From assembly GCA_037447655.1 (NCBI GenBank), contig JBBHKE010002555.1:354105-418104 (forward strand): a stretch of DNA of 64,000 nt, in the 5' to 3' direction. Under the pieces are notes generated by a model. It saw only the letters and a program-made list of their open reading frames with translations, searched no databases and was not told the origin of the DNA. This stretch comes from Zygnema cylindricum. Its lineage: Eukaryota; Streptophyta; Zygnematophyceae; Zygnematales; Zygnemataceae. Of the stretch, positions 20,344-63,396 are shown one piece after another. Both the position numbers and the translations under genes were made by a program. Positions within the stretch are counted from its first letter, which is position 1. Each line of letters starts with the position of its first letter.

Positions 20344-20551
20344 TGTAGAAACTAATGGTTTTATTAGTATTTTCTAGGTCTGAAAAGAAATATAGAAGTC
20401 GAGGCAGTCTATCTCTAACTTCTCTCTCCAACTCTCAAACTTGTCGCAGTCACTGAGAAATTGGAGAGGAAGCTAGAGCCATGGCTACCTTGGCTATCCT
20501 GAGGTTTACGGGAAATTTATATTAGGGTTTATTTATTAAAGTGAAAGCTTA

Positions 20552-20632
20552 TGCCGGCGGCAGGATTTGATCCTTGTACCTACCGGCCGGCAGTCAGGAT
20601 ATAGCCGGTAGCCTTAGCCGTTTAGTCTAGCA
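20552..20632 (-). promoter_or_regulatory. Antisense tRNA-like module in E 5' LTR
   Basis: On the minus strand a D-arm-like GGCTAAGGC is followed about 45 bases later by the B-box GGATCAAATCC, as in tRNA-derived Pol III promoters. No T4 run follows within 25 bases in this copy. It could be a fossil of an ancestral tRNA or SINE insertion. Confidence 0.55.
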
Positions 20633-20989
20633 GTATTGTTACGTAGCATATAGTTTGATAGTTATTTAAATAGGTATACGTGCGAAAAACCATTTAACTG
20701 CAATGAATTACGGGATACATAGATCCAGTAATATATAATGTATGACTTACGGTACGGACACAAATCAGTACCGCGCATTTGTTTCGTAAATGAAACAAAT
20801 ACCGCGCATGTATTTATTACGGCTACGATTAAAGCCGAATTTAATCGGACGGCCGGGATTAGCGCCGAGATCGCGGAGGAAGATTTCGGCGGTTTGTGGC
20901 CATCGCCAGATCGGATGACGCGTGGCGAAATTCCGTTGGATTGTGGAATCTCCGGAGATTATGGCACCGAATCCGGATTTGACATGTGT

Positions 20990-21090
20990 CGACATTTTGG
21001 CCATGTCGTACAATGTCCGTACATAAAGTACACCGGCAGCTGTACTTTTGCGTACGGAACTCAATTGTGATTGGTTCCGTACATCAGTAG
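20990..21090 (+). promoter_or_regulatory. GTAC-rich promoter block of E 5' LTR
   Basis: About six GTAC tetramers in under 90 bases, with spacing matching the other clade II LTRs. GTAC is the core recognised by plant SBP-box factors, but binding here is only inference. Confidence 0.5.
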
Positions 21091-21371
21091 ATAGAGTCTG
21101 TGAGAGAGATAGGACTTAGAAAAATTAGAAGATAGGACCCCCTCTCCCAGAGAGCTTCTGTACAAAAGGTCAACTTTGACCCTCCATAACTTACTGCTCA
21201 GGGGAGCAAATTCAGAGATTCTTTTTGCTATCCACTCAGGGGAGTCTTGTCTTCACAGGGGTGAAGTTGGTCAGGTTTTTTGTCTGCCACGGTGGCAGTT
21301 ATTTTTGCTTAAACACAAAGGGGTCAGGATTATCCTAGAGGCTTCTTGGAAGCTGTCCACTCTGAGGACTT

Positions 21372-22127
21372 ATGGAGGTCTCAGAGTTTCAGGTTATGGG
21401 CCCACCCTCTAGGGTACCAATCTTTAATGGAACTGGCTTCATATACTGGGAAAGTATGATGATAGGAGCTCTATGCGAAAAAAAGTTTTGGGGGATAGTG
21501 AGTGGACGATTGGGGCGTCCATCAAGTCTTCGAATTCCTCCAGGGTTTAAAGGAAGCAGATTCACCAGGAAAGAGGATTCACCTTCAACGGAGGAAACAA
21601 AGGAAGGAGAGGTGGTGGACAAAGGAAAGGAGAAGGAGGCGACCACACCAATAGCAACTGGTTTAGCATTCATGTCACCTATTCCGAGGAACGAGGAGAA
21701 TGATACTAAAACCTGGGACTTCAATAATATGGCGGCAAAGCACTTCATCCTACGCCATCTCACTCAAGGACTTGCATGTCCTCATTTGCAGGTAGAGAGG
21801 GCATCCGATCTTTGGATGTCTCTCATAGAGATGTACCGAAGTGGTACGATTCAGCAACAACAGTTGGCTGATCAGAAAGTTAAGGAGTATGTATACAAAG
21901 GGGGAAATATGTTGGATTTTTGCAATGAGCTTGCTACACTCTTCATGGAGCTAGAGAGTGCGGATAAAGTTTTTAGTGAAAAAGAAAAAGTTAACTGTTT
22001 ACTAATGAAGTTACCTGATGAGTTCGAGAACATAGTCAACCGTGTGCAGGACTTGCCGGACTCAAGGTGGATATGGAACTCAGTGGTAGGGATGATTCTC
22101 GTTCGAGAGAATACGATTGAGATCTGA
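21372..22127 (+). pseudogene. gag: Element E gag, 5' segment (premature stop)
   Basis: The ATG at 21372 is in the LTR, 20 bases before its end, giving MEVSEFQVMGPPSRVPIF with the primer site translated. It has a UBN2-type Gag with a clade II spacer (Lys/Glu-rich, about residues 70-110), then the LWMSLIEMYRSGTIQQQQLA and LLMKLPDEFENIV segments. It ends at a TGA near 22125 where relatives continue to a CCHC knuckle. The knuckle region (about 22255-22310) is further damaged by a frameshift. Confidence 0.85.
21392..21406 (+). promoter_or_regulatory. Primer-binding site of element E (perfect half-tRNA-iMet match)
   Basis: GGTTATGGGCCCACC is the exact complement of the plant-type initiator tRNA-Met anticodon stem and loop as I recall it. 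It lies immediately after the LTR. Confidence 0.8.
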
Positions 22128-22297
22128 AGGGGAGGAAAGAGTGGCCAAGCCTTGGCAACAGCGACCGATTAGAGGAACAAGGATTCCCGGAAACCAGTTG
22201 GAAACTATGGGGGTAAGGAGCAGAAAAAACAGGTTGGCGAGTTCGAACCAAGGGCTCCCAAAGGTTTATATCATTTTTGTAAGATACCGGACACTAT

Positions 22298-23576
22298 ATG
22301 GCAGAGTGCACCAAGCTAACCGAGCTTCGGTTAAAGGAGGGGCAGACCGGTGGTACCCCGAGAGGAAAGAAAAAGGCCCTTGTCACACAGGTACTTGAGG
22401 CGGAATCCGAGGACGAGGACGATGAGCTCCTTTTGGATGAGGAGTTGGAGGCGAAAACTGAGGTTGAAATTCCACGAAGGCAGAAATGTGCTTACGGTGG
22501 ATTGAAAGGTGAAGCAGGCTGGATTGTAGATTCAGGTGCCTCAATGCACATGTGTAAGGATAGACACCTGTTCACTAAGATAAGAAAGATTCCCACCGTA
22601 GAGATAGAGTACGGAGATGGGAGGATAGTCACCACTACTCTTGTAGGATCGGTAGACCTGAAAGTGTTAGTAAAAGGAAAGACATCCATATTAACATTCT
22701 CCGATGTATTGTTTATTCCGGAGCAGAACAAAAACCTTATCTCTACATCAGTATTAGATGATAAGGGATTTTTTACTAGCACTAGGGAAGGAGTCTTTAC
22801 TGCTAGTTTTGAGGAGGATGTCTATTTCATTGCTGAGAAAGGTAGCCATGGGATGTTTAGGCTGATCTTAAGTAATGAAACGAAGAAACTTTATTATGCT
22901 GGTGTTCATGATATTATGATGTGGCATAAGAGGCTTGGGCATGTGAATCTAGATAAGTTAAGAGAGATGAAAAAGATGGGAGTGGTGGAAGGGATTCAGT
23001 TCAGTGAGAGTGATGATATAAGTGATTGTAGTGGGTGTGCTCAAGGTAAAGCACACAGATTACCCTTTCCAAAAACAACCACCTACATGGGAGAAAAACT
23101 TCTAGATCTAGTACACACAGATATTTGGGGACCGGCTAGAGTGCCCTCACCGGGGGGGGAAGAGATTTATGATGACCATAACTGATGATTGGTCTCGGTA
23201 TTCCCGAGTATATTTTTTGAAAAACAAGTCAGAGGCTGAGGACTGTTTTAGACAATATAAAGCATGGAGCGAAAAACTCCATGAAATTCCAATCAAGAGA
23301 GTAAGGAGTGACAATGGTGGAGAGTATACTTCTAACCAGTTTGAGGATTTTTTGAGGGAAGATGGGGTTCAACACCAAAAGACAGTTCCAGAAAATCCGG
23401 AACAGAATGGGGTAGCTGAAAGGTTAAATAGAACACTAAGTGATAGTGCTAGAAGTATGTTGTCAGATAAGAAGATAGGAAAAAGGTTTTGGGCAGAAGC
23501 AATGAACTGTGCTAATTACCTCAAAAATAGAGTTCTTACTTCAGCTATAAAAGATCAAACACCTTATGAGAGATGA
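22298..23576 (+). pseudogene. pol: Element E protease and integrase (frameshift and stop)
   Basis: Picks up at the last knuckle residues (MAECTKL). The protease site is GWIVDSGASMHMC (near 22520). The integrase zinc motif is WHKRLGHVNLDKL with CSGCAQGKAH. The catalytic core has VHTDIWGP, then a frameshift at the G run 23151-23158, then RSDNGGEYTS and NGVAERLNRT with the catalytic Asp and Glu present. A TGA near 23574 replaces Trp in the YERWTGRKP motif. All lesions are single events, so the copy was probably competent before decay. Confidence 0.85.
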
Positions 23577-23774
23577 ACAGGCCGGAAACCAGACTTATCT
23601 CATTTAAAGGTTTTCGGCAGTCAAGTATTCAGTCTAGATACAGATCGGTCTAATTGGAAGCTAGATCCTAAAGGAAAACCGGGATACTTATTAGGATATG
23701 ATGAGGATGTTAAAGGATATAGAGTTTATGATCTAAAAAGAGAAGATATAATCTTAGTAAAGCATCTAGTAGTT

Positions 23775-25730
23775 ATGGATGAAGGAAAGTCTGTGGATCC
23801 CTTCAAATATACAAAGTCAGTAAAAATCAGATTTGAGTCAGAAAATTCTGATGACTTTGAGCTTCCTAACTATCCAGGTTTTAGAGACGATGACATTCTT
23901 GCAGGAACAAATCAGACCGAAAAGGACTCGGCTGTGGAAACTCCAGTGACAACTCTACTCGAAGCGGAAGACGTGGTGGAAATTGATTCGGAATCAAGGG
24001 ATAGGGGAGAAGCCGAGTTTGTTCGAAAGAATCCACGAGAACCATCTATTCCGGCCTCAGATTTTGAGGGGGGGAGGAGAAGTAGCAAAAGACTGCAAGA
24101 AAAACAGGTTAATAACAAGGTAACTAAACTATCTCATCAAGATGAACCTCAAACTTATGGAGAGGCGATGAATTGTCCAGAAAGAAATCGGTGGAAGACA
24201 GCCATCAATGAAGAGATGGCCTCAATTATGAAAGCTGATACTTGGGAGCTGGTGGATTGTCCACCTAACCGAAAACCAATCGGTTGTAAGTGGGTTTTCA
24301 AATTAAAACTGAACCCAGATAACACAATCGAGCGCTACAAGGCCCGACTAGTGGCAAAGGGATTTACACAAAAGGAGGGAATTGACTACGAGGAAACCTT
24401 TGCCCCGGTGGTCAGATTTCCCTCCGTCCGCATACTTCTCAGCCTAGCAGCATCGGAAGACATGGAAGTGCACCAGATGGACATCAAAACAACCTTTTTG
24501 CATGGAGAATTGGAAGAGGAGATCTTCATGCGACAACCCGAAGGGTTTGTGGAAGAAGGAGAGGAGAGTAAGGTATGCCGGCTGATTAAATCTCTTTATG
24601 GTTTGAAACAGGCGCCTCGACAGTGGAATAAGAAGCTTGATGAGTTTCTTACCGGTCTAGGATATATTCGGATCAGCTCAGATCACTCAATCTATGTTTT
24701 CGAAGACGAGGAAGGTTTTATATTTATTGCAATTTATGTTGATGATTTGCTTGTTTTAAGTAAATCAATGGAAAAAATTAATAAACTAAAAACCGATCTT
24801 AAGGGGAGATTTGAAATGAAGGATATGGGGGAAGCAAAATATATTTTGGGAATTCAAGTAAAGAGAGACCGAAAAAGAAAAATTATCAGATTGACTCAAA
24901 AGGAAGCAATAGGGAACATGCTTGAAAAATTTCAAATGGATAAAGCTAATAGTTGTACAACTCCAATGGAATTGAAGAAGGGAAGTGAGGGGAGTGAGGA
25001 ACAAGGAGTCATAGTCTTAGACGAGGAATTATCTCCTGATGAAGAGAAGTTCATGCAGACTATTCCTTACAGGCAAGTAGTGGGAAGTCTAATCTATTTT
25101 ATGAATTGTACCCGGCCGGATTTCGCTGCAGCTGTAGGAGTGCTGAGTAGAAGTCTAAATGCTCCCACTAAGAAGGATTGGGAGGCAGCTAAGAGAGTCC
25201 TTAGATACTTGGTAGGAACTAGAGATCTATGGTTGCATTTGGGTGGGGAGAATACTGACATCACTACTTGGAGTGATGTCAGTTATGGTGATGCTCCGAT
25301 GGGAAGATGTACTTCTGGATATGTATTATATGTGGGTGATGGGGCTTGCTGTTGGAGTAGCAAACAGCAAAAGGTTATTGCTCAGTCCACCATCGAGGCT
25401 GAGTATATGGCCTCTTGCTCTGCTGTAAAAGAATTGATGTGGGTCAAGTCTTTGCTTGGTGAGCTTGGTCACCTTAAGAGTGGTGTGCAGAAAATATTTT
25501 GTGATAATCAGGCAGCAATCGCTATTTCTGCCAATCCTAAACACCATTTTAAAGCCAAACACATGGACATCAGACTCAGCTTTGTTAGAGAGAAAGAAGA
25601 AAACAAAATAATCAGTTTAGAGTACAGACCAGATAGTGAGATGGTAGCAGATATGATGACCAAACCTGTGCCTTCCCCTAAGCTAATTTTTTGCAGGGAG
25701 AAGTGTGGTCTGAAATTAAAGATTGACTAG
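23775..25730 (+). CDS. pol: Element E integrase C-terminal linker, RT and RNase H (651 codons open)
   Basis: The longest intact enzyme frame in the window. Residues 1-125 are the integrase tail and linker (KSVDPFKY start). RT follows, with TWELVDCPPNRKPIGCKWVF, ARLVAKGFTQKEGIDYEETF, HQMDIKTTFLHGELEEEIF, YGLKQAPRQWNKKL and the YVDD active site at about residues 321-324. RNase H has WSDVSYGD near 499, a catalytic-type Glu in STIEAEYMAS near 542, and DNQAAIAIS near 577. The frame ends just before the polypurine tract. It belongs to the gag-pol polyprotein, so the listed ATG is internal and not a natural start. Confidence 0.85.
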   Translation: MDEGKSVDPFKYTKSVKIRFESENSDDFELPNYPGFRDDDILAGTNQTEKDSAVETPVTTLLEAEDVVEIDSESRDRGEAEFVRKNPREPSIPASDFEGGRRSSKRLQEKQVNNKVTKLSHQDEPQTYGEAMNCPERNRWKTAINEEMASIMKADTWELVDCPPNRKPIGCKWVFKLKLNPDNTIERYKARLVAKGFTQKEGIDYEETFAPVVRFPSVRILLSLAASEDMEVHQMDIKTTFLHGELEEEIFMRQPEGFVEEGEESKVCRLIKSLYGLKQAPRQWNKKLDEFLTGLGYIRISSDHSIYVFEDEEGFIFIAIYVDDLLVLSKSMEKINKLKTDLKGRFEMKDMGEAKYILGIQVKRDRKRKIIRLTQKEAIGNMLEKFQMDKANSCTTPMELKKGSEGSEEQGVIVLDEELSPDEEKFMQTIPYRQVVGSLIYFMNCTRPDFAAAVGVLSRSLNAPTKKDWEAAKRVLRYLVGTRDLWLHLGGENTDITTWSDVSYGDAPMGRCTSGYVLYVGDGACCWSSKQQKVIAQSTIEAEYMASCSAVKELMWVKSLLGELGHLKSGVQKIFCDNQAAIAISANPKHHFKAKHMDIRLSFVREKEENKIISLEYRPDSEMVADMMTKPVPSPKLIFCREKCGLKLKID

Positions 25731-25743: not shown

Positions 25744-26792
25744 TGTAGAAACTAATGGTTTTATTAGTATTTTCTAGGTCTGAAAAGAAGTATAGAAGTC
25801 GAGGCAGTCTATCTCTAACTTCTCTCTCCAACTCTCAAACTTGTCGCAGTCACTGAGAAATTGGAGAGGAAGCTAGAGCCATGGCTACCTTGGCTATCCT
25901 GAGATTTACGGGAATTTTATATTAGGGTTTATATATTTAATTAAAATGTATGTGCCGGCGGCAGGATTTGATCCTTGTACCTGCCGGCCGGCAGACACGA
26001 AGTAGCCGGTAGCCTTAGCCGTTAGGTCTAGCGGAAGTGTTACGTAGTATATAGTCTGATAATTATTTAACTATGTATACAAGCGATAAACCATTTAACT
26101 AGAATTAATTACGGGATACATAGATCCAGTAATATGTAATGTACGACTTACGGTACGGACATAAATCAGTACCGCCCATTTGTTTCGTAAATGAAACAAA
26201 TACCGCGCATATATTTATTACGGCCACGATTAAAGCCGAATTTAATCGGACGGCCGGGATTAGCGCCGAGATCGCGGAGGAAGATTTCGGCGGTTTGTGG
26301 CCATCGCCACATCGGATGACGCGTGGCAAAATTCCGTTGGATTGTGGAATCTCCGGAGATTATGGCACCGAATCCGGATTTGACATGTGTCGACATTTTG
26401 GCCATGTCGTACAGTGTCCGTACATAAAGTACACCGGCAGCTGTACTTTTGCGTACGAAACTCAATTCTGATTGGTTCCGTACATCAGTAGATAGAGTCT
26501 GTGAGAGAGATAGGACTTAGAAAAATTAGAAGATAGGACCCCCTCTCCCAGAGAGCTTCTTTACAAAAGGTCAACTTTGACCCTCCATAACTTACTGCTC
26601 AGGGGAGCAAATTCAGATATTCTTTTTGCTATCGACTCAGGGGAGTCTTATCTTCACAGAGGTGAAGTTGGTCAGAGTTTTTGTCTGCCAGGGTGGCAGT
26701 TATTTTTGCTTAAACACAAAGGGGTCAGGATTATCCTAGAGGCTTCTTAGAAGCTGTCCACTCTGAGGACTTATGGAGGTCTCAGAGTTTCA
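25744..26792 (+). repeat. 3' LTR of element E (1049 bp)
   Basis: Direct repeat of 20344-21391 with scattered differences, the clearest around 25930-25955. It ends GAGTTTCA followed by the GTTAA target duplication. Confidence 0.93.
25953..26033 (-). promoter_or_regulatory. Antisense tRNA-like module in E 3' LTR, with T4 terminator
   Basis: On the minus strand, GACCTAACGGCTAAGGC matches the D-arm of a plant tRNA-Arg at 15 of 17 bases by my recollection of that tRNA. The B-box is GGATCAAATCC. A TTTT run follows about 8 bases after the module's 3' end. Confidence 0.6.
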
Positions 26793-27825
26793 GTTAAATC
26801 CCGACAACACCATTGAACGTTAAAAAGCTAGACTTGTGGCAAAGGGGTATAATTAAAAGGAAGAAATCGATTTTGAAGAAACATTTTCTCCGGTTGTAAG
26901 ATTTACGACAGTTAGGATTTTACTGTCCCTAGCTGCTATAGAAGATATGGAAATACATCAGATGGAAGAAAAGACGGCTTTTTTGCATGGAGAACTAGAA
27001 GAGACCATTTACATGCAGCAGCCTGAAAAGTATGTGGAACGTGGAAAAGAGCACTTAGTATGCAAGTTGCTAAAATCTCTGTACGGCCTAAAACATGCCC
27101 CCATATAGTGGAATCTGAAGCTTGATGATTTCCTAACTAGCCTAGGATTTCAAAGGATAAGTTCTGATCACTCTGTCTACATTCTAAACGGTGAAAATGG
27201 GATAATGTATATAGCAGTGTATGTAGATGATTTACTATTAATTAGCAAATCAATGGCTGAAATTAACAAAATCAAAACTGCTCTAAACTCACGGTTCGAG
27301 ATGAAAGACCTCGGTGAGGCAATATATATTTTGGGTATTCAGGTAGAGAGGGACAGAAATAAGAAAGTAATAAAATTGACTCAAAAGGAGGCTATTGGAA
27401 ACATGTTAGATGAGTACGGAATGCGGGGGGCAAAAGGATGTCTAACTCCAATGGAGGTTCGGCAGAAGTTAGAGGGAGAAGAGACAGAACTAGGTGTCAT
27501 TGTTAGCGAGTATTTAGAATCAGGGGAGAATGATTTATGACACAAATACCTTACAGACAGATAGTCGGAACCTTAATATATTTCATGAATTGTACTCGTC
27601 CTGACATTGCTGCAGCAGTCAGGGTACTGAGCTGGAGTCTAGAGAATCCGAGAAAATCTGACTTTGATGCAGCAAAGAGAGTCTTAAGATATTTGGCCGG
27701 AACCAAAGACCTCAAACTCACAGTATGCGGAGGAGAAGTAAAACTGCAAACGTGGAGTGATGCAAGCTATGGCGACATGCCAAGCCGGAAGTCCACCACG
27801 GGATTCGTTCTACAAGTTAGGAACG
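26793..27825 (+). pseudogene. pol: Family C body 2, rest of RT and RNase H (truncated)
   Basis: Resumes with NPDNTIER after element E. Stops are present early and at about 27106 (TAG for Trp in the QWN motif), then YVDDLLLISKS (near 27220) and RNase H up to WSDASYGDMPSRKSTTGFVLQV. It breaks at about 27825, where the sequence flips into minus-strand RNase H of element F at the equivalent motif. Confidence 0.85.
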
Positions 27826-29989: not shown

Positions 29990-30033
29990 ACCCGAAAATG
30001 CTTGAAGTGAGTGAGCACTTCACTCTTTTTCTT

Positions 30034-44706: not shown

Positions 44707-44710
44707 ACTA

Positions 44711-45966: not shown

Positions 45967-45971
45967 ATTAA

Positions 45972-49361: not shown

Positions 49362-49497
49362 ATAATCAGTTTAGAGTATAGACTAAATAGTGAGATGGAA
49401 GCAGATATGATGACCAAACCTACGCCTTCCCCTAAACTGATTTTTGCAGGGAGAAGTGTGGTCTTAAATTTAAAAGTCACTAGAAAATAAGGGGAGT
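49362..49497 (+). pseudogene. E3 RNase H tail and polypurine tract
   Basis: Short 3' remnant with the D-MMTKPTPSPKL tail seen in E (25640-25730), followed by AAAATAAGGGGAG. Confidence 0.75.
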
Positions 49498-49640
49498 GAA
49501 GGAATTAATGGTTCTTGTTAGTATTTTGTAAGTATTAAACTGTATAAATAATGTAGAAAATAAGCAGAGTCAATCTGCCTCTAACTCCTCCCTTCAACTC
49601 CCACACTTGTCGTAGTCATTGAAGGTTGGAGAGGGAGCTA
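49498..49640 (+). repeat. 3' LTR of E3, left part (split by L)
   Basis: Starts TGAAGGAATTAATGG, with the TCGTAGTCATTGAAGG and GGGAGCTA blocks. Element L interrupts it just before the CCATGG block; it resumes at 63402. Confidence 0.85.
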
Positions 49641-51485: not shown

Positions 51486-52655
51486 TGTTGTTTTGAAATG
51501 TTAGTTTCGTGCGTACGCCACACTTTGAGCGCACGCGACATTTCATGCGTAGATTATTACCGGAAATAATGTGGTGGTACAAATGGAGGTTCGAATGAAA
51601 TTGTTGATTGGGGGAGTAATTGACGATTGGAAATTGAGTGGCTCGAAATACGTTTGTAAATAGACGGCGGATCGCGAAGCGATCCTATGTGAAATGTACG
51701 AAATGTTAAATATGTACACCGCCGGTACGGAGCGTCTTGTTTAGACAAGTGTACTTCATTTACGACAGGCTCATTTATTGCAAAGGACGCATGTTCAGTG
51801 CGGAAAAGATTTTGAAGGTACGGTTTAATTTCGGCAAGTGGGTCATGGTACATTTGGAGGGCGGACGGCGTCTGGCCGATATTTTCAAGGGATCGCAATT
51901 TTGATGACGTGGTTTCAAGTGTACCGTACTTATGTGAAGTTGATTCACTACGTGGTTTCGTCCACAAGTAAATAATCGAGTTGATACTCAATACGCGGAT
52001 TTTATGGAATCGTCGGTGAAAATATTTTGATTTAACATTGTTTTGTCTTTTTGTGCATTAATTATTAGTGTATAATTACATTTTCTGACATACCTCGAAT
52101 TATTCAGGTATACTTACATTAATTTAAGTAGATGGTAAATTACGTACGGCTGCTATGCCTCCGTACATTTAGTGGTAGGCCTGAGTGTATATATTGTAGA
52201 ACTTAGTCATTTCAGAACATAGGAACTTTCTGTACCAAAACCTGTTTATGGACATTTTTGGTAATTTTATCTGAGTAATGCTCTCATATATCTTGGTAGA
52301 ATTATCTGAAATTTTGCATGTGTGTTCCTCCCTGTATTTTCTACATTTTAACAGATTTGCAGGCGTATTGTGTGCCTGTTCTGTGTTTTACTTCATTGTG
52401 AAGTTGGTCGGTTTTATCAAAGTTTTGGCAGACTGTTTTTCTGCAACTTTGACTAGATGATGTGAATACTCTATTTATTATTTTTGTCTGAAACTTTGTA
52501 AGGTTATTCTATAGCCTAGAAAATATTTTTGATTGTAGTTTAAGCGTGTTTTGTTTTTTTTCTAGAATTCTGTGATGATTCAAAGTAGGCTATTTTTGGG
52601 TAGTCTGTGGTGCTTCCAAGGGTAAATCCATGGCTGAAAATGGCTATGGACAACA
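51486..52655 (+). repeat. Solo clade I (A-type) LTR, 1170 bp, TSD CATAT/CACAT
   Basis: Starts TGTTGTTTTGAAATG and ends ATGGACAACA like element A, and contains the ATGGCTGAAA start-codon context. Flanked by CATAT (51481-51485) and CACAT (52656-52660), while L RT reads across (IGN then MLEKF). It is about 200 bases longer than the A LTR. Confidence 0.85.
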
Positions 52656-53295
52656 CACATTACCTATTCCTTCTTTCTGAGTAAGTCTGATAAGTAATTT
52701 CTCCCTATCTCTCTCCATTTCGATCCCTAAAACGTATCTTGCCTCACCTAAATCTTTCATATCAAAATCTGCTTTTAAGATATTTTTTTTGCCTATTGAT
52801 TTTTTCCAAAGACTTACTAAGCACAAGCAAATCATCCACATAGATTGCAATAACAATAACACCATTCTCATCTTCAAACATGTAGATAGAATGGTCAGAG
52901 CTTATCCGGATATATTACAGACCGGTGAGAAACTCATCTTGTTTCTTATTCCAATGTCGGGGAGCTTGCTTCGGTCCATATAAGGACTTTATGAGCCTGC
53001 AAACTTTGCTCTTTTCTCCTTCAACCACGAACCCCTCTGGTTGCCTCATGAAAATTTCTTCCTCTGACTCACCATTAAGAAAAGCAGTCTTTATGTCCAT
53101 CTCGTGTATTTCCATGTCTTCCGCAGTTGCGAGACTGAGGAGAATCCTTATTGATCGGAACCAAACAACAGGAGCAAAGGTCTCCTCATAGTCAATCCCC
53201 TCCTTTTGAGTGAACCCTTTCGCTATCAATGAGCCTTATATCTCTCAATGGTGTTATCTGGGTTCAGTTTTAGTTTAAATACCCATTTACAGCTA
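52656..53295 (-). pseudogene. pol: Element L RT (palm and fingers)
   Basis: The minus strand carries RLTQKEGIGN and a disrupted YVDD area near 52830 with a frameshift. The YGPKQAPRHWNKK, HEMDIKTAFLNGESEEEIF and IAKGFTQKEGIDYEETF motifs are in one frame (52915-53229). It ends in the IGCKWVF motif at the J2 insertion. Confidence 0.85.
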
Positions 53296-54184
53296 GTCTC
53301 CATTGACCCTAAGAATGAGCAGCCTATGTAAAGCCTCTAGGATAATATTTGCCCCTTCTATTTTCCCGCTGAATAAGCGCCGCCCAGACACAAAAATATT
53401 CTAACCACTCTCACACATGAGACGACAAGACTCCTTTGAGTCAAACACAAAAAGAAACACTGAATTTGCTCCCCTGAGCAGTAAGTTATGGCTGGTCAAA
53501 GATGACCTTTATAGTTACAATCTCTCTTAGAGAGAGGTACCTAAATTTTATTAAGTCCTAGTCTGCCTACTTACGCCTGCCTACTACTAAACCCTAGTCC
53601 AATAGAAACACTATATAGTACAAGAAGGTACTCTAGGCAATGTACTTATTGTACGGCCATTGTACGACATGGCTTTGAAAGTGACGCTTGTCAAAACGGA
53701 GCCATGGTTCCTCCTCCCATGTTCTCCGGTCTCCAATAGTATGGTGCCACATGGCGTCGCGTGACGCTATCCCCAAAGGCTGCCGAAAGTTTATTGCGGA
53801 TGGCGGCTGCAATTGTGGTCGTCCGATCATTTGTATTTATGCGGCTTCGATTCGCTTCTATGCATGAATTGATTAATGTGTGTTTTCATTAGTCTGCTGC
53901 AAATTTGTCCGTTTAAAAAATATATGAATATGCCTGAAACGTAATAAATATATCGTTTCGCTGGTGCGTGAATGGATAAGGCTTAGGTCTATATAGTGGT
54001 CCGTAGACCCCGGTTCAAATCCGGCCAGAGGCACTATTTTGCTACATATAGTAAAATACCTTCTATTTCATTCTGCCTCCTTCTAAATGACGCGGCAGCC
54101 ATGGCGTGCCTTTGGTTCTCTCTTTCTCTCTCTTTACATTCTAACTAAAATACAGAAGTGACGATTTATTACCTCTTTTCAACA
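53296..54184 (-). repeat. 3' LTR of J2 (889 bp, U5 end truncated)
   Basis: Minus-strand TGTTGAAAAGAGG start as in J. It contains the GCAGCCATGGCGTGCC block, a tRNA-like module and GTAC motifs. Confidence 0.88.
53960..54034 (+). promoter_or_regulatory. tRNA-like module in J2 3' LTR (antisense to J2), with T4 terminator
   Basis: AATGGATAAGGC equals the tRNA-Arg D-loop word. B-box CGGTTCAAATCC is canonical. TTTT follows about 6 bases after the GAGGCAC end. Confidence 0.65.
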
Positions 54185-56210
54185 CTCCCCTTAATTCTTA
54201 GTCACTTTTTAATTTTAATCCACAGTTTTCTCTGGAATAAATCAACTTAGGGGAAGAAACTGGTTTTGTCATCATGTCTGCAATCATTTCTTTATCAGTT
54301 TTATGAAGTAGTTTAATGATTTTAGTTTCAACCTTTTCTTTGACAAAGCTTAGTCTAATATCCATATGCTTAGCTTTGAAGTGATGTTTCGGATTAGCTG
54401 CAATAAAGATAGCAGCTTGATTATAACAAAAAACATTTTGAGTTCTTGTCTTCAGGAACCCAAGTTCTTCAAGAAGAGATTTCACCCACATTAATTCTTT
54501 TGTGGCAACAGAAGAAGCCATGTATTCAGCCTCCATAGTGGACTGATCAACTACTTTCTGTTGCTTGCTACTCGAATAGCATGCACCAGATCGAATTTGC
54601 AACACATATCTAGTCGTACACCACCTTAAAGGCACATCTCCATAACTGGCATCACTCCAGGTTGTGATGTCAGTGTGCTCCCCTCCCAAAGGCAACCACA
54701 ATTCCCTTGTCCCCACCAGATACCTCATCACCCTTTTGGCAGCCTCCTAGTCTCTCTTTCTTAGTTCATTTAGACTCTTGCTGAGGACTCCTACGGCTAC
54801 AGCTTTATCCAGCCGGGTACAATTCATAAAATATATTAAACTGCCTACAATCTGCCGATAAGGGATATTTTCCATAAATCTTCTTTCTATCTCATCTATC
54901 TCATTATTAATGATCAATATTCATCCCTCTTCACTCCCCTCACAAACTTTGTTCAAATCCATGGGAGTAGTACATCCGTTTGCTTTCTCCATTTAAAATT
55001 TTTCTGGCATATTACTAATTGATTTTTTCTGAGTGAGTTTTATAATCCTATTCCCTCTATCTCTCTCCATTTGAATTCCCAAAATGTACTTTGTTTCGCC
55101 GAGATCTTTCATGTCAAAGCGGCTTCTAAGATCATGTTTTAGTTTGTTAATTTTATGTATGGACTTGCTTAAGACCAACAAAGCATCCACATAAAAAGCA
55201 ATAAATATCACTCCATCCTCATCCTCAAATAAATATATGGAGTGATCTGAACTAATTCTGATATACCCCAAACCGGTCAGAAATTCGTCGAGCTTTATAT
55301 TCCACTGTCGCGGGGCTTACTTAAGCCCATAGAGTGATTTTATAATTTTGCAAACTTTGTTTTCTTCCCCACTCTCCAAGAATCCTTCCGGTTGCCTCAT
55401 GTAAATTTCTTCCTCCAACTCGCCGTGCAAAAATGTCTTTTTAATATCCATCAGGTGTATCTCTATATCCTTCGGTGCACCTATACTTAAAAGGATTCTA
55501 ATAGAAGGAAATCTGAATACAGGTGCAAAGGTTTCTTTGTAGTCTATCCCCTCTTTTTGAGTATATCCTTTTGCAACTAACCTACCTTTGTACCTCTCAA
55601 TGGTATTATCGGGGTTTAATTTAAGTTTAAAAACCCACTTACATCCGATCGGTTTTCGGTACGGTGGACAATCTACCAACTCCCATGTATTCGCTTCCAT
55701 GATAGAGGCCATTTCTTCATTTATAGTTGTGATCCACCTGCTACTTTTCGAAGTGTTTATGGCCTCTAAGTATGTTTGAGGTTCATCTGGGTGAGACATC
55801 TTTGTGAGTTGGTTATTTACTTGTCTTTCTTGAAGTCTTTTCCTACTTCTTTTTCCCCCTTCAAAATTGGACGCAAGTATGGAAGGCATCCTTCGGTTTC
55901 GTTTAGGGAGATTTTCAGCTCCCCTATCTTCCAATTCCTGTGTCTCATCAAGTTCCTTATCGGTTTCCACTTCGTATTGTGGCTTTGCCTCGGATGTTGT
56001 CCTTTCCTCCCTCTCCTTTGGTAGATCTGCAGATTTTTCTTTTTCTCCCTCTTCCTTCTCTTCATCTTCAAAGTCAAATTCAAAAAACTGATCCGTTTCA
56101 AATCTGATTCTGACTTCCTTATTATATTTGAATGGATCAATGGACTTCTCTTCATTCATCACCATTATGTGTTTTACCAAAATTATATCTTTTTTTTTCA
56201 ATTCATACAC
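54185..56210 (-). pseudogene. pol: Element J2 RT and RNase H
   Basis: Right to left: integrase tail and linker (MNEEKSIDPFKYNKE near 56160), then RT in one long frame to 55317 (TWELVDCPPYRKPIGCKWVF, KGYTQKEGIDYKETF, HLMDIKKTFLHGELEEEIY). A stop after YGLK is followed by the frame 54993-55271, whose YVDA replaces YVDD (Asp to Ala). After a gap, RNase H at 54198-54731 shows WSDASYGDVPLRWCT, STMEAEYMAS and YNQAAIFIA (Asp to Tyr). Catalytic changes in both RT and RNase H mark it as dead. Confidence 0.85.
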
Positions 56211-57662
56211 TCGGTATCCTTTTGTGCTCTCATCATATCATACAAGATATCCTAGCTTCCCTCTCCCCTCTAACTTCCATTTAGTCTTATCGGAATCCAA
56301 ACCATAGACTTGACTTCCGAACACTCTCACACTAGACAAATTAGGCTTTCGTCCTGTCCACCTCTCATACGGAGTGTCCTCCTTATTTGCTAAAGTAATG
56401 ACTCTATTTTTGATGAAATTAGCATAGTTCATAGACTCTGCCCAAAAGTGCAACCCTATCCTCTTATCGGTTAACATATTTCTGGATATATCTCCTAAAG
56501 TTTTATTCACTCTTTCTGCTTCTCTATTTTGTTCTGGATTATAAGGAAAAGTTTTCTCATGATGAATTCCTTCTTCTTTAAGATATTCTTCAAATTCCCT
56601 TGAGTTGTATTCTTTCCCATTATCACTTCTTATCTCTTTTATTGAGGTTTCGTGTAGTTTTTCACTCCATACTATATACTCTTTGAAACATCTCAATACC
56701 TCTGACTTATGTCTAAGAAAATATACCTTCGTGTATATAGACCAATCATCTGTGATAGTTAACATCCACCTCTTCCCCCCATGTGAAGCATATATAGCAG
56801 GTCCCCAAAAATTGGTGTGAATTAGATCCAATACTTCCTCTCTTCAAAATGTGGTTGTCTTTGGAAATGGAAGTCTATCAATTCTCCCTTGGGCACATCC
56901 ACTTTAATCATCATAGGTCTCATCATCCTCAAAAGTAATACCCTCCACTATTCTCTTTTTCTTCATTTTCTTTAATCTATCTAGATGCACATGCCCCAAC
57001 CTTTTGTGCCAAAGCATCATCTCACTTGTACACAAGTAGAGAACATTTTTTTCATTGCAAAGAACAATTCTGAACATTCTTTGACTGCCGTTCTCAGCTA
57101 TGAAATATACATCATTATCAAAGCTTGCTGTGAAGATTCCTTTCCTAGTTCCTGTTTCAAACTCCTTTTCATCTAGGACAGCTGTTGTGACTAGGTTCTT
57201 ACTAAGCTGTCGAATGTAAAGAACGTCTGAGAGTGTTACAATTGAGGCCTTTCCATCAACTAGAACCTTCAAGTCAACAGTTCCAACAAGACTTGTGGTT
57301 TCTACTCTACCATCTCGGTACTCTATCTCAACTGTTGGGATCTTTCTCAGTTTAGTTAACCACCCTTTATCTTTGCACATATGCATTGAGGCTTCTAAGT
57401 CTATGATCCACCCATCTTCAGGTGGATCCCTCTTACCTCTGAAAGAACACTTTTGTCTCCGTGGAATGTCAACATGCTTTTGAGTGTTTTTCGGATTAAG
57501 AACAAGTTCCTCAAGCTTCTCAAGCTCATCTTCTTGTTCGGTTTCTTCGTTATCTTGCTCATCATAAACTTCAGTTAGGAAAGCATTTTTCTTTCCTCCA
57601 TTTCTTGAGGTCCCTTGCCAATCTTTTAGTCGAAGATCTGCAAGTTTGCCACAATCTGCCAT
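56211..57662 (-). pseudogene. pol: Element J2 protease and integrase
   Basis: A 252-codon open piece (56904-57662) holds the end of the knuckle (MADCGKLADLRLKD), a protease site GWIIDLEASMHMC (DSGA changed to DLEA) and the zinc motif WHKRLGHVHLDRL. A second piece (56238-56831) holds the core with IHTNFWGP (catalytic Asp to Asn), RSDNGKEYNS and NREAERVNKT. A stop near 56904 separates them. Confidence 0.85.
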
Positions 57663-58641
57663 ATAGTGTCCCGGTTTCTTGCAGAAGTGACATAATCCTC
57701 CTCAAGAAGTTCCTCTCCCTTGTCTATCAAATCTGCCACCTTTTTGTCCTCTTCCTCCAAAGTTTCGATAGGGATCTTTCTCTCTCTCCTCATCACGCTT
57801 CCGCCAATCAGCTCCTGCAGACAATGCTTGAACACTTGGACTCCCTCTCCTAAGCTCTATGGTGCTATCTTTCACTAAATTCATTCCCACTATGTCATCC
57901 CAATTCCAATTGCTATCTCCTATATCTTGTAATCGATTAATGATATTCTCATACAATTTAGGTAGTTTCATCATTAATTTGTTCACTTTTTGACTCTCAG
58001 ACCTTGAGTTAGCTGCACTCTCTAGCTCTCTTAATAATCCTCCTAAATCATTGCAATAATTATTCATTCTTCCTCCCTTATAAGTATAAGCTGCAATCTT
58101 GTTTTTGCCAACTGTTGCTCCTGTAATGATCCACTCTTATATATTTTTAACCAGTGATATCCAAATCTGAGATGAAAATTTGACAGGCATAAGGGAAATG
58201 GCAATGCCCTTTGCTACACTTTTAAGAATTAAGAGCTTAGCAACCTTGTCTTTGTAGTTCCACTTTTCATACTCTGATCTTTCGATCTGAACCCTTGTCG
58301 CCGTTGTTGGTGGTGTAGCTGCCAGATTGCCTTCGGCAATGGTGTCACTTGAGTTGTAACTCCTCCCATTTCTCCTTCCATGATAATCTCCTCTCCTCCT
58401 CGTCTTCATCCTCAAAGATGGTGGCAGCTGATCTACCTACTGTATAGGCGGAGGTGCCAAAAAAACGTGTTCCTCCAAACCCAAGTGGAGGTGGGCATCA
58501 AACTTGTCCGGACACTATGCCCCATAGGTGTTTCTCAAATAGTTCTCCCTCCATCATCATTTAACAAAAAAAATAGTCTGATCCATCAAATATGGGCACC
58601 CTAGAGGGTGGGCCCATAACCTGCAATTTTGTGGTCTCCAT
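57620..58641 (-). pseudogene. gag: Element J2 gag
   Basis: The minus-strand ATG at about 58641 lies in the LTR and gives METTKLQVMGPPSRVPIF with the primer site translated. It then hits a stop soon after. Clade II Gag segments MNNYCNDLGGLLRELESA and LMMKLPKLYENI are in the frame 57702-58067. The knuckle reads C-HF-C-KKPG-H-YMAD-C across a frameshift near 57690. Confidence 0.8.
58607..58621 (-). promoter_or_regulatory. Primer-binding site of J2
   Basis: On the minus strand GGTTATGGGCCCACC follows the LTR end ATTGCA, identical to those of E, H and L. Confidence 0.8.
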
Positions 58642-59522
58642 TGACCCAGAGAATGAGCAGCCTATGTAAAGCCTCTAAGATAATATTTGCCCCTTCTACT
58701 TTCCCGCTGAATAAGCGCCTCTTAGGCACACAAATATTCTGACCACTCTCACCCTTGTGAGGACAAGACTCCCTTGAAGCAAACGCAAAAAGAATCACTA
58801 AATTTGCTCCCTTGAGGAGTAAGTTATGGCTAGTCAAAGATGGACTTTATAGTTACAAGCTCTCTTAGACAGAGGTACCTAAATCTCACTAAGTCCTGGT
58901 CTGCCTACTAAAGACTCCCTACTACTAAACCCTAGTCCTATAGAAACCCTATATAGTACAAGAAGGTACACTAGGCGATGTACTTATTGTACGGCCATTG
59001 TACGACATGGTTTTCAAAGTGACGCTTGTCAAAACGGAGCCATGGTTCCTCATCAAATCTTCTCCGGTATCCAGTAGTATGGTGCCACGTGGCATCACGT
59101 GATGCTATCCCTAAAGGCTGCCGAAATTTTATTACGTATGGCGGCTGCAATTGTGGCCGTCCGATCATTTGTATTTATGCGGCTTTGATTCGCTTCCATG
59201 CATGAATTGATTAATGCGTGTTTTCATTAGTCTGCTGCAAATTCGTCCATTTAATAAATAGATGAATATGCGTGAAACGTAATAAGTATATCGTTTCGCT
59301 AGTGCCTTAATGGATAAGGCTTAGGTCTATGTAGTGGTTTGTAGACCCTGGTACAAATCCGGCCAGAGGCGTATTTTGCTACAAATAGTAAAATGCCTTC
59401 TATTTCATTCTGCCTCCTTCTAAATGACGCGACAGCCATGGCGTGCCTTTGGTTCTCTCTTTCTCTCTCTTTACAATCTAACTAAAATATAAAAGTGAAC
59501 TATTAATTACATTTTTTCAACA
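58622..59522 (-). repeat. 5' LTR of J2 (901 bp)
   Basis: Matches 53296-54184. It contains CACGTGGC near 59094, GTAC repeats near 58957-59000, and the tRNA-like module at 59299-59371. Confidence 0.88.
59299..59371 (+). promoter_or_regulatory. tRNA-like module in J2 5' LTR (antisense to J2), with T4 terminator
   Basis: CCTTAATGGATAAGGC is very close to the tRNA-Arg D-arm. The B-box has one mismatch (GTACAAATC). TTTT lies just after the GAGGCG end. Confidence 0.6.
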
Positions 59523-61408
59523 AGGTTTTCTGTCTGGAGGAGAATCTGCTAGTTTCCAGGTATTTGCTAACATGATGGAAGCCATCTCATCATTTATGGC
59601 TCTTATCCATCTATCTTTTTCTGGGCTGATCACTGCCTCCAAGTATGACTGAGGCTCATCAGGATGAGATAGCTTAGTTATCTTATGGGCAACGTATTTC
59701 TCTTATATCCTTTTGCTGCTCCATCTCCCTCGCTCAAACTCTGAAGCAGGAATTGAAGGAAGTCTTGGGTTTCTCCTTACTGTCTCATCGGCTCCCCTAT
59801 TCATAGAAGCCGGTTCTAGTTCCATCTCTTCTGACTCCCCAAAGTCCATAGGAATAAGTGAGGTGTTCGGAAGATCTCGTGTATCTTGAATATCCGTTGA
59901 ATCTGCAAACACAGTTTCACTTATGTCTTTTTCGGGAAAGACATGACTCTCCTCGCTTTTAGACTGAAAGCCTATTTTTATCTTTTTGGTATATTTCAAT
60001 GGGTCAAATGACTTTCCGTCATCCATGACAACTAGGTGTTTGACCAGAATAATATCTTGCTTTGCTAAGTCATAGACTCTATATCCATTGACATCCTCAT
60101 CATATCCTACAAAGTATCCAGGTTTGCCATTAGCATCTAGTTTCCAATTTTTCTTATCCGTATCAAGTCTGTAAACTTGGCTTTCGAATACTTTAAGGTG
60201 TCAGATATCTAGTTTCCTTCCAACCCATCTCTCATAAGGTGTCATTCCCTTTACGGTTGAGGTAAGGACTCTATTCTTAATGTAGTTGGCACAGTTCTCT
60301 ACCCAAAATGTCTTCCATATTTTGTTGTCGGCCAACATACTACATACACTATATTATAGTGTTTAGTTTAGTCTTTCAGCTACCCCATTTTGTTCCGCGT
60401 TTGATGGTACAGTGTTCTGGTGTTGAACTCCCTCATCTCTCAGGTTTTCCTCAAAAGGGTTAGAGATACATTCTCCCCCATTATCACTCTTTATTCCCTT
60501 AATGGGGCTTCCATGCAACTTCTCACTCCATGCTTTATATTCTCTGAAGTTAGTTGGTTTTTCAGACTTTGTTTTAGGAAGTAGACTTTGGAGTACCTAA
60601 ACCAATCATCATTTATTGTTAAAATAAACCTCTTCTCCCCAACCGATGGTACTCTTGCAGGTCCCCAGATATCTGTATGGACTAGATCTAGTACCTTTTA
60701 CCCCCTATATGTGGCGGCTTTGGGAAATGGAAATCTGTGAGCTTTTCCTTGAGAACATCCACTACAATCATCCACCATTTCATTATCACCAAACTGAATG
60801 CCTTCTACTACAATAAGCTTCTTCATTTCCCTCAGCCTATCAAAATGCACATGCCCAAACCGCTTATGCCAAATCATCAATTTTGGTACACCAACATAAT
60901 AAGCATTCTTTTTTTTCATTACTCAAGTTAAGCCTATACATGCCTTGGCTACCTTTATCTACCGTGAAGTAGACTTCATCCCCATACTTGGCCGTAAAGA
61001 CTCCGTTATAGTGAAGGTATCAAATTCTTTGTCATCTAAAACAGATGTAGAGACAAGATTTTTGCTCAGTTGAGGAATATATAGTACTTCTGAGAATGTG
61101 TGTAAAGAAGTCTTACCCTCCACTAAGACTTTCATATCTACTAAATCCACTAGATCTGTAGTAACCACTCTCCCATCGCCATACTCTATCTCTACAGGAG
61201 GGATCTTTCTTAGCTTAGTGAAAAGTTAACTATCACGACACATATGCATGGATGCACAGGAGTCGATGATCCATCCTTCCTGTGGAGCTTCCCGAATTGC
61301 TCCAAGGGCATACTTTTGTCTCCAATGGATCTCGTTCTCCTCTTGACTCTCTTGAAAAAGAAGCTCCCCATCCTCCTCATAGGACTCGTCCTTAGTTTCT
61401 CCTGTCAC
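59523..61408 (-). pseudogene. pol: Element L protease, integrase and RT start
   Basis: Right to left: protease site GWIIDSCASMHMC (Gly to Cys); zinc motif WHKRFGHVHFDRL with CSGCSQGKAH (60698-60919). The core region is broken by frameshifts (about 60200-60690). The linker has DDGKSFDPLKYTKK (59703-60026). RT begins near 59600 and is interrupted by J2 after PPDRKP. Several stops show that it is inactive. Confidence 0.8.
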
Positions 61409-62406
61409 TTTTATGACCGGAAGTGCCTTTTATTCCCTCTGCAAGAACCCCTTCCATGGTTCTTTTGGAGCCTCTGCTCCTAGAGCTTGACACAATTTGC
61501 GATAAAGTGTCCCGGCTTTTTGCAAAAATGACTAAGGCCCTTTGGGGGCCTTGGTCCTCCAGGCTGATCACTCTCTCCTTTGAATGATTTTTTCAGATCC
61601 TTCCCCCATCGGTTTCCTCCTACAGCTAGAGTTTGGATGCTCTTCCCTCCGCTCCTAATCTCAAGTGTGTTCTCCTGCACACGTATCATCCGGACCAGTG
61701 TGTTCCACTTCCATGAACAGTCAGTCATTTCTTGTACTTAGTACACTATGTTTTCATACTCGTCTGGTAATTTCATGATGAGAGTGTTAACTTTCATCTT
61801 CATTGTACCTGTCCACCTAGCACTTTCCATCTCCATATACAAACAGGAAAGATCATTACAATAATCCTATATCTTTCCTCCTTTGTAAGTGTAACTCACT
61901 AGCGTTTGCTTAGCCAATTGGAGCTCTTGAATGGTACCAGCTCTATAGATCTCCACCAAACTCACCCACAACTCCTCGGCCTTGTAAATGTGAAGGTGAG
62001 GGGTGGCCAAAACTTGAGTGAGGTGCCTTAGAATGAAGTTCTTTGCAGCCATGTTTACGTCTTCCCACATTTGAGTATTGTTCTCCACGGTGTTCACAGC
62101 CGTTGCTTTCGGTGCCGTGGCAATAGGAGTGAGGGGTGTCTCCTTCCCTTTCCCCTTTTCGGACACACTGCTGTCCCCATCATCTACCTCGTCCGGTGAA
62201 GCAGTCGCTTCTGCAGGAAACCTTATTCCTCCAAATCTTGGTGGAGTTCCCGAATGTGGAACTTTCACTTGTCCACTTACAATACCCCAGTATCGTTTTT
62301 TGCACAAAGTCCCCATCACCATGGCTTCCCAATAGATGAATCCATATCCATTGAAGGTGGGCACCTAAGAGGGTGGGCCCATAACCTGCAATTCTATGTC
62401 CTCCAT
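61409..62406 (-). pseudogene. gag: Element L gag
   Basis: The minus-strand ATG at about 62406 in the LTR gives MEDIELQVMGPPS, then a TAG, then VPTFNGYGFIYWEAM in frame. The clade II spacer and the ELWVSLVEIYRAGTIQELQLA core continue to a stop near 61867. A further part at 61480-61728 has the knuckle C-KKPG-H-FIAN-C with its first Cys changed to Ser. Confidence 0.85.
62372..62386 (-). promoter_or_regulatory. Primer-binding site of element L
   Basis: Minus-strand GGTTATGGGCCCACC adjoining the LTR. Confidence 0.8.
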
Positions 62407-63396
62407 TGGACTACAGAATTCAAGAAGCCTCTAGATAGCTTTTAACTAACCCACTTCAAGCCACAACCACTGCTGCCCAAGAGAGCAAACTGACAATCTA
62501 ACTGCACCCCTGTGCAGCCTCGAATTTCTTGAGTCCGTTGCAAAAAGAATTACTGAAAACGGCCAACCAACCGATAAGTTACGAGCCAACAAAAATTGCC
62601 AATTTTATAGAAAGCTCTCTTAGAGAGAGGTGACTACCTACCAGATTTTCCTAAATCCTAAACCCCTCTCACAACCCCTATCTACTGAAGTACGAACCAA
62701 CCACATGACTGTAAAGTACACAAAGGAACTACGGCCGATGTTCTTTCTGTACGGCCTGTGTACGACAAGGCCACTAAGTGGACACGTGTCACCCTTCCAC
62801 TCATCTGTATGTTCCGCGGAATTCGTGCGACCAAATGTTAACCCTCCACGTGGCGCTAGGTCATGCCACGTCCATAAACGCCAAAGTGACCATTCCGCAA
62901 TCTCGGCAGTGATGCATGCCATTGGATGAAATCTAACATTAAATGTCGGCCATCGAAGCAAATGTCCGATTCATTTGTTTTGTGCGAAATGACGTCGGCA
63001 CTGAAATTTTAACGAGTTCTATGTTCCTTTGTTAACATTTTAGTTAGTCAGTTAGAAGACCATGTACGAGTTTAAATACGTATCAAACCCTATGTATCTT
63101 AATAGACTTCTACGACAAACTGGTTAGAGCTAACAGGTTACGCCGTACTCTACCGGTCGGAGGTTCGAGTCTTGCCAAACTCAACCTTTTGTTGAGAGTG
63201 AGATAAGTCACTCTTTAGTCTTGCCTGTGGAACTAAGGCAGCCATGGCTCAACCACCCTTTATATCTTTCAATGACTACATTAAGTATGGTGTCTACAAA
63301 GAGGAGGTGGAGGTAGGTTGTCCACCTTTTTCTTTTCCCTTTTATACTCGCATATTTAGACCTAGGAAATCCCATATAAATCAAATAATTTCAACA
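62387..63396 (-). repeat. 5' LTR of element L (1010 bp)
   Basis: Pairs with 49641-50648. CACGTGTC near 62784, CACGTGGC near 62848, a GTAC cluster near 62690-62765 and the tRNA-like module at 63107-63184 are present. Confidence 0.9.
63107..63184 (+). promoter_or_regulatory. tRNA-like module in L 5' LTR (antisense to L), with T4 terminator
   Basis: D-loop word CTGGTTAGAGC and B-box AGGTTCGAGTCT, then TTTT after CTCAACC. GGTCGGAGGTTCGAGTC resembles the T-arm of a tRNA-Ile. Confidence 0.65.

Follow-up and report, generated by a model that had tools for sequence, protein, structure and literature searches.

Antisense tRNA-like modules with a B box in the long terminal repeats of copia-type elements from Zygnema cylindricum

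Helenus elements (TRIMp3) are non-autonomous terminal-repeat retrotransposons in miniature (TRIMs) of 311–1263 bp, whose long terminal repeats (LTRs) contain tRNA-derived sequence with boxes of RNA polymerase III (Pol III) promoters (Kojima 2024, PMC10886601). According to the sections of that paper considered here, parts of boxes A and B are conserved in most of these elements. Fungal Helenus copies have 5-bp target site duplications (TSDs) and a primer-binding site (PBS) that mostly fits the anticodon loop of a tRNA, predominantly that of the initiator methionine tRNA (tRNA-iMet). The elements are thought to be mobilised by copia in fungi or by gypsy in animals, and a working tRNA product is considered unlikely. 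Autonomous partners are argued to need RNA polymerase II (Pol II), and a long LTR stretch common to them and TRIMp3 is regarded as improbable. The same source mentions "not a few" LTRs in Repbase with partial likeness to tRNA (PMC10886601); such partial likeness alone is therefore not new. For foamy viruses, abstracts report Pol III-directed microRNAs (miRNAs) of bovine and simian types and LTR-encoded miRNAs (PMC7693620, PMC7104284). Here, we describe tRNA-like modules in the LTRs of copia-type elements from Zygnema cylindricum (Streptophyta). The window, i.e. the whole stretch of DNA analysed, comprises 64,000 nucleotides (contig JBBHKE010002555.1, positions 354,105 to 418,104). It looks eukaryotic and is filled by nested copia-type elements, as judged from open reading frames (ORFs) and from the gag, gag-pre-integrase and reverse transcriptase (RT) domains found in the ORFs searched.

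Self-comparison of the window yielded 13 LTRs of one copia clade that span the module position. They have a length of 0.9–1.2 kb and belong to three families, with LTR starts at 20344, 25744, 41659, 44725 and 47139 (family A), at 34683, 48351, 49641 and 62383 (family B), and at 36414, 41451, 53296 and 58621 (family C). A preliminary description of this DNA had placed a tRNA-like module in every LTR of the clade that reaches the region. All 13 modules were found at the places given and on the strand opposite to their element, and no LTR detected with BLAST (E 1e-3) spans the position without one. Eight of the 13 LTRs are the pairs of four elements, namely E1 (A1/A2), E2 (A6/A7), E3 (B10/B13) and E4 (C11/C12); the modules are therefore not independent and represent nine insertions. 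They are listed below with their scores in two models. The covariance model (CM) was built from 36 prokaryote tRNAs and applied to both strands of the whole window without filters. The sequence-only profile, a hidden Markov model (HMM), was built from 67 tRNAs and compared to a null of 30 simulated 64-kb windows. T4 and T6 are runs of four and six T following the B box.

20551–20632, minus strand: module A1; B box 20564–20572; no T4; CM 13.0 bits, HMM 6.2 bits
25952–26034, minus strand: module A2; B box 25965–25973; T4; CM 10.4 bits
34895–34960, minus strand: module B3; B box 34908–34916; T6; CM 12.5 bits, HMM 14.0 bits
36554–36620, minus strand: module C4; B box with one mismatch; T4; no CM or HMM match
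41592–41658, minus strand: module C5; B box with one mismatch; T4; 5' side cut by E2; HMM 4.2 bits, no CM match
41851–41930, minus strand: module A6; B box 41864–41872; T4; CM 17.1 bits, the best of the window (tied with its twin A7); no HMM match
41851–41893, minus strand: acceptor/T-arm hairpin of A6; fold z -2.8
44917–44996, minus strand: module A7, the LTR twin of A6; CM 17.1 bits
47338–47417, minus strand: module A8; B box 47351–47359; no T4; CM 12.3 bits, no HMM match
47338–47380, minus strand: hairpin of A8; fold z -3.8
49079–49148, plus strand: module B9; B box 49129–49137; T6; no CM or HMM match
50360–50434, plus strand: module B10; B box 50415–50423; T4; D word CTGGTTAGAGC; HMM 21.8 bits, no CM match
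53960–54034, plus strand: module C11; B box 54013–54021; T4; D word AATGGATAAGGC; CM 11.8 bits; relaxed ARAGORN match (-ps90) at 53954–54032
59298–59371, plus strand: module C12; B box with one mismatch; T4; CM 10.0 bits, no HMM match
63110–63184, plus strand: module B13; B box 63163–63171; T4; HMM 15.9 bits, CM 9.1 bits

Two features of a Pol III type-2 promoter are present, a B box and a downstream T run. As had been claimed, the B-box consensus GWTCRANNC is matched exactly in ten of the 13 modules; the other three (36554, 41595 and 59299, all of family C) deviate by one mismatch, each by a different change. By itself the consensus is not rare, since the two strands of the window contain 21 exact matches and 459 with at most one mismatch. 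The terminator-like run was likewise confirmed: TTTT or longer begins 13–17 nt past the end of the B box in 11 modules, which is where a tRNA gene would end. The probability of finding such a run by chance is 0.228 for the 34 nt searched and 0.145 for the 22 nt that hold all 11. A third short word lies on the other side of the module:

20665–20670, either strand: TTTAAA palindrome, located 97 nt ahead of the B box of A1 on the tRNA-like strand and downstream of the module in the sense of the element

TTTAAA occurs 90–91 nt before the B box in B3, B9, B10 and B13 and 100 nt before it in C11, distances for which there is no chance estimate. By our own count, it is located about 38–40 nt ahead of the expected +1 in A1 and family B. 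Read in the sense of the element, it may equally be a TATA box for Pol II.

Likeness to tRNA extends beyond these words. The nine best of the 15 listed CM matches are modules, all antisense to their element and with scores from 17.1 to 9.1 bits. They start at 41852 and 44918 (17.1 bits, E 0.003 each) and at 20550, 34896, 47339, 53987, 25953, 59325 and 63155 (9.1 bits, E 1.4), whereas the remaining six (E 4–10) are located outside modules. The match at 20550 covers every arm of the tRNA model, and its anticodon loop contains an insert. If nine matches were placed at random, with modules occupying 0.86% of strand positions, this outcome would have a p of about 3e-19, or about 4e-13 when six lineages are counted; both values are rough. 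The low-threshold covariance search that had been proposed as a check thus recovers most modules as the best matches of the window, but four (49079, 50362, 36554 and 41595) are absent from its list. Seven of the 16 matches of the HMM are modules, and three of these (50373 with 21.8 bits, 63120 with 15.9 bits and 34957 with 14.0 bits) exceed the null maximum of 9.4 bits. The other four are within the null (54007, 8.8 bits; 20597, 6.2 bits; 41623, 4.2 bits; 25996, 3.6 bits). The match at 50373 covers profile positions 16–72, and the profile matches generally lack the 5' part, i.e. the 5' strand of the acceptor and the TRGY half of box A. Scored against 400 shuffles of their own sequence, seven of 13 modules exceed all shuffles, and the combined p over eight groups is 0.0012. 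With relaxed settings, ARAGORN reports 53954–54032 as one of two matches at -ps90; lower thresholds yield noise (25 matches at 80, 163 at 70). Judged by these scores, the modules are tRNA-derived, with a likeness above chance. A functional tRNA gene was considered as well and rejected, as gene finders recognise no cloverleaf.

Comparison between families indicates which parts of the module have been retained. The B box has an identity of 0.65 (A-B), 0.75 (A-C) and 0.69 (B-C), and the D-loop word of 0.67, 0.69 and 0.63, respectively. The spacer (0.24–0.35) and the middle of the module (0.28–0.33) are zones of low identity. The D words are specific in part: AATGGATAAGGC is confined to the modules 53960 and 59299, and CTGGTTAGAGC to 50362 and 63107. 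CCATGGCTNCC is more conserved (0.82–0.91) than the B box in all three comparisons, and the same holds for the CTA word in A-C (0.83) and for the TTTAAA block in A-B (0.76). Windows of 11 nt that match or beat the B box number two of 504 in A-C and 12 of 504 in B-C. Between family C and families A/B, the U3 (unique 3') region of the LTR has an identity close to random except for the B box, the D-loop word and CCATGGCT (a block near the LTR start), which persist. The contrast depends on family C, because the 5' LTR part of A and B (0.56) is not near random. This pattern looks like a kept promoter word, or like tRNA words that were captured repeatedly. In the CTA word of the anticodon-loop region, T and A are invariant in 13 of 13 modules, which favours one origin. 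The preliminary description had stated that position, orientation and terminator are kept while the tRNA-like sequence has diverged. Between families this is borne out as far as a tRNA-derived, antisense sequence of constant location that retains B box and T run is concerned; it does not extend to a full type-2 promoter.

Our preferred reading, for and against which we see about equal weight, is that the modules are reverse tRNA-derived U3 sequence whose B box has been kept as a putative docking site for transcription factor IIIC (TFIIIC) and Pol III. A tRNA gene or the head of a short interspersed nuclear element (SINE) would have been placed in reverse within the U3 region of an LTR of the copia lineage, probably before the split of families A and B. 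The 3' half of the module (D-loop word, T arm with B box, and 3' side of the acceptor) would then have been kept together with the T run, and the 5' half and anticodon region would have drifted. The B box might dock TFIIIC, resulting either in weak antisense Pol III transcription or in occupancy by TFIIIC/TFIIIB; a transcript of this kind would stop at the T run just within the LTR start. As TTTAAA lies between the module and the body of the element, U3 could act as a divergent promoter, with Pol II directed inward and Pol III outward. Alternatively, the unit could serve as a boundary that keeps U3 or the adjacent promoter open. Binding of TFIIIC/Pol III, the antisense RNA, an effect on the element and the strand that uses TTTAAA are all surmised from sequence. 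More tentative, and in our estimate doubtful, is the bolder proposal that a gag-pol copia kept this divergent promoter with its common TTTAAA (Pol II inward, tRNA-type Pol III outward) through the split into three families, and that its life cycle includes an antisense U3 RNA or a boundary formed by TFIIIC.

A number of observations weigh against a maintained B box or against the tRNA likeness that underlies it. The excess conservation over flanking sequence that the preliminary description expected of a maintained unit is not seen within families: in a comparison that excludes C5, the B box reaches 0.82–0.84 versus LTR means of 0.66, 0.72 and 0.75, and 18%, 19% and 45% of 11-nt windows are conserved as well. 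Between A and B, 95 of 448 windows, about a fifth, match or beat it. None of 13 cross-family pairs of U3 sequences aligns significantly at the module, and A1-C11 (p 0.33) and B10-C11 (p 0.18) are the only pairs whose best local match joins the two B boxes; the multiple alignment behind the identity values was itself guided by the same conserved islands. Families A and B do, in favour of our reading, have in common a significant stretch of U3 adjoining the module, the TTTAAA block (A6-B3 and A1-B13, p 0.005; A8-B3, p 0.01), but TTTAAA itself is absent from seven of 13 modules. The modules 20552 and 47338 lack T4. The best matches to box A comprise five to seven of eight positions, compared to a median of six for random stretches of 50 nt, in agreement with the earlier remark that A boxes are degenerate. 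A1 reaches 7/8, and A2, A6 and A7 reach 6/8 at B-55/56; four of the five family A copies have TAGAC(N)2AACGG at the same position. Family B has 5–6/8 at B-66/67, which is farther than in tRNA, and the family C matches lie at B-40, -47 and -59. As the box A matches do not rise above chance level, a complete type-2 promoter for Pol III is unsupported. With respect to tRNA likeness, three of the four displayed CM alignments are confined to acceptor and T arm, with the D and anticodon arms passed over. Six of 13 modules have no match to the tRNA profile when scored singly. The pattern by which the tRNA set was collected contained GGTTAGAGC and GGTTCGAATCC, a bias towards the words of family B. Default ARAGORN finds no tRNA in the window, and no Rfam tRNA was found at E <=1 in the window or at E <=10 in two modules tested singly. 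Finally, the basis is one window with nine insertions, and sequence alone. Because the B box is ordinary within families, the module lacks a significant alignment and the alignment was guided by islands, we regard maintenance of the B box as likely rather than demonstrated.

Ordinary conservation within families and a box A at chance level, like the six modules unmatched by the profile and the many A-B windows as good as the B box, would also be expected if the U3 of an ancestor had received a single tRNA or SINE insertion that was then copied with the LTR and decayed without function, the common words being its remnants. We consider such a neutral fossil less likely, and on balance rather improbable, because none of the 13 B boxes departs from the consensus by more than one mismatch and because B box and D-loop word retain 0.63–0.75 identity between C and A/B, whose U3 sequences are otherwise near random. 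That same comparison could be explained if families, chiefly C, had gained tRNA-derived sequence independently at the same place, via SINE insertion or reverse transcription into a tRNA, with words alike because tRNAs are alike. The family-specific D-loop words and the low cross-family identity (0.28–0.33) of the anticodon/variable region fit repeated capture, as does the fact that no C versus A/B pair aligns significantly except A8-C12 (p 0.04), and this outside the module. The invariant T and A of the CTA word would, however, be unexpected for different tRNAs, and the orientation is identical in three families; repeated capture is thus distinctly unlikely.

Selection could also act on RNA structure, for example on an acceptor/T-arm hairpin recognised by RNase P/Z or used as a packaging signal in the RNA of either strand, rather than on the B box. 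In family A, the T arm is now part of a stacked acceptor/T-arm hairpin of 14 pairs, three of which have two-sided changes. In this hairpin 85.7% of cells are paired compared to 75.2% in shuffles (three of 500 shuffles are as high), and no two-sided pairs occur when the partner is slid. Among 11 folded modules, the antisense strand has z values of -2.8 (A6) and -3.8 (A8), and of -2.6 to +0.45 in the other nine. Yet the test comprises four distinct rows with a structure drawn from A6, and 80 of 500 shuffles equal the number of two-sided pairs. Moreover, the RNA strand is not assignable, because the element strand folds equally well or better (z -2.8 for A6, -5.4 for A8). No fold common to all 13 modules was found, as only three consensus pairs result; a cloverleaf as conserved feature was rejected on this ground, and the outcome is as expected of a promoter, not of an RNA. 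A structural role is accordingly a slight possibility. Slighter still is the possibility that the module attracts copia integration into existing LTRs. Pol III genes attract Ty1, Ty3 and other elements, and of five insertion sites read here one lies inside a module (E2 in C5, TSD ATTAA) and one, at about 63465, coincides with the T run of a different LTR. On the other hand, the flanks of E1 and E4 are pol-like, and E3 sits in the arm of an LTR hairpin; the coincidence was noticed after the fact in only five sites, and the insertion at 63465 has one flank in the window. A role of the module as the primer tRNA of the element was rejected, since inspection by eye gave no complementarity between PBS and module.

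The best-preserved copy is E1 (6.45 kb), which is flanked on both sides by the 5-bp TSD GTTAA:

20344–21391, plus strand: 5' LTR of E1, family A; begins with TG and ends with CA; 95% identical to 25744–26793 in self-comparison
20397–20498, plus strand: hairpin near the LTR start, whose 3' arm is the CCATGGCT block (RNAalifold)
21366–25730, plus strand: coding region of E1, with gag and pol frames split into several pieces (ORFs and domain matches)
21390–21406, plus strand: primer-binding site region GGTTATGGGCCCACC, directly after the 5' LTR
25744–26792, plus strand: 3' LTR of E1, family A; TG and CA ends; 95% LTR identity

Domain search, which left out the piece 23112–23576 and the ORFs of E3 and E4, identified gag (PF14223), Pol_BBD (PF22936), gag_pre-integrs (PF13976), SH3 (PF25597) and RT (PF07727, RVT_2) in E1. 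Because its coding region is split over several reading frames, we do not claim that this copy is active. Families B and C are linked to pol by DNA similarity only. The protein search with pol yielded 7665 relatives among 7968 scored candidates; the top five by E-value are named plant proteins with 34–47% identity and 42–92% query cover, and among the matches listed those that cover at least 95% have about 36–40% identity. Scans of viral contigs detected no relatives of pol and no exact occurrence of a 24-base LTR block. GGTTATGGGCCCACC is presumably the complement of the tRNA-iMet anticodon loop, and half-tRNA priming at this loop is the mode of Drosophila copia. The PBS word has eight matches in the window at up to three mismatches, versus 0.16 expected, and is found after LTRs of family A (21390, 42838), family B (48335, 62372) and family C (58607). 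A gag frame (21366–21440) opens within the LTR and reads across the PBS, which therefore codes for part of a VMGP motif.

Eleven of the 13 LTRs hold CCATGGCT without any change; the two at 36414 and 47139 contain CCATGGTT. The hairpin at the LTR start has 23 pairs, seven of them with two-sided changes, in an RNAalifold analysis of ten LTRs of families A and B. It also occurs at 34750–34850, at 41703–41806 and in seven further LTRs, and its well-kept loop resembles CATACTTGTTGTAGTCACTGAA. By eye, the LTRs of family B have a near-perfect palindrome like GAGTGACNTANGTCACTC adjoining the T run (34840–34900, 49100–49185, 50430–50490, 63180–63240), and the T run of B3, B10 and B13 is located in the loop of CTCAAC..GTTGAG. 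The other three elements with LTR pairs are as follows:

41659–45966, plus strand: element E2 with LTRs A6/A7; interrupts module C5 and thereby an LTR of family C; TSD ATTAA (41654–41658 and 45967–45971)
49641–63396, minus strand: element E3 with LTRs B10/B13, 89% alike; TSD AGCTA
53296–59522, minus strand: element E4 with LTRs C11/C12, 90% alike; nested in E3

E2 comprises 4.3 kb, and its longest frame (42814–44706) is a gag-like ORF of 630 amino acids, in which a zinc knuckle is matched with a score that does not reach the curated cut-off. A domain search of this ORF found no RT domain, and a protein search with its residues 1–400 found no relatives. E2 is possibly a non-autonomous copia. 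BLAST (E 1e-3) also detected five LTR fragments that end before the module position (15385–15506, 20081–20279, 37432–37518, 49497–49640 and 63396–63462; the last two belong to a single LTR as its two halves), and two that start past it (8191–8233 and 45965–46656, the latter being the remainder of the LTR that holds module 41595). The family A LTR targeted by E3 continues beyond the TSD at 63397–64000 and is interrupted at its T run by an apparent LTR from a different family (TGTTGTTTTTGAAAAC, similar to 3052); any 14th module would fall outside the window. Elsewhere, positions 10870–12750 hold a strand-biased, CT-rich repeat of about 2 kb (GC skew -0.58 in 10001–12000). Rfam gives a single match for the window at E <=1, mir-653 at 45143–45192 (minus strand), which is probably due to chance (30.3 bits versus a gathering score of 77).

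Extra-TFIIIC sites consist of a B box only. The modules resemble them in that the B box is kept and box A is not, and differ by the T run that follows. Like tRNA-derived SINEs (SINE2), they have a decayed tRNA head with a B box; unlike SINE2, the nine best CM matches of this window all lie in LTRs at one LTR position, with E >=4 for the other six. Judged by titles and the beginnings of abstracts in the open-licence literature, we found no antisense tRNA-like units in autonomous LTRs. The foamy virus miRNAs are retroviral hairpins, and the opening parts of the abstracts mention no tRNA-derived antisense unit (PMC7693620, PMC7104284). Cassandra and Ajax are described as non-autonomous TRIMs derived from 5S rRNA (PMC10853983, in the part considered), and no 5S match was found here in Rfam at E <=1. 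If our reading holds, it offers a sequence-based test of whether TFIIIC sites aid LTR promoters, and for pipelines that annotate tRNAs and SINEs, LTRs of this type call for caution as a further source of tRNA-like repeats. As in Helenus, tRNA-derived sequence lies within the LTR, and with fungal Helenus the elements have in common the 5-bp TSDs (GTTAA, ATTAA, AGCTA) and a PBS word that presumably corresponds to the anticodon loop of tRNA-iMet. Elements with Pol III promoters in their LTRs have so far been described as short passengers, with autonomous partners claimed to differ. Unlike Helenus as portrayed in the sections considered, E1 has 6.45 kb with gag and RT domains, the LTRs measure 0.9–1.2 kb, and box A is not above chance although the B box is kept. 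The module is antisense to the element, whereas in the available text of the Helenus paper the words "antisense" and "opposite" are absent and "orientation" appears once, in a legend on primer tRNA (PMC10886601). Antisense tRNA-derived units in gag-pol elements would, if true, widen the Helenus-like kind.

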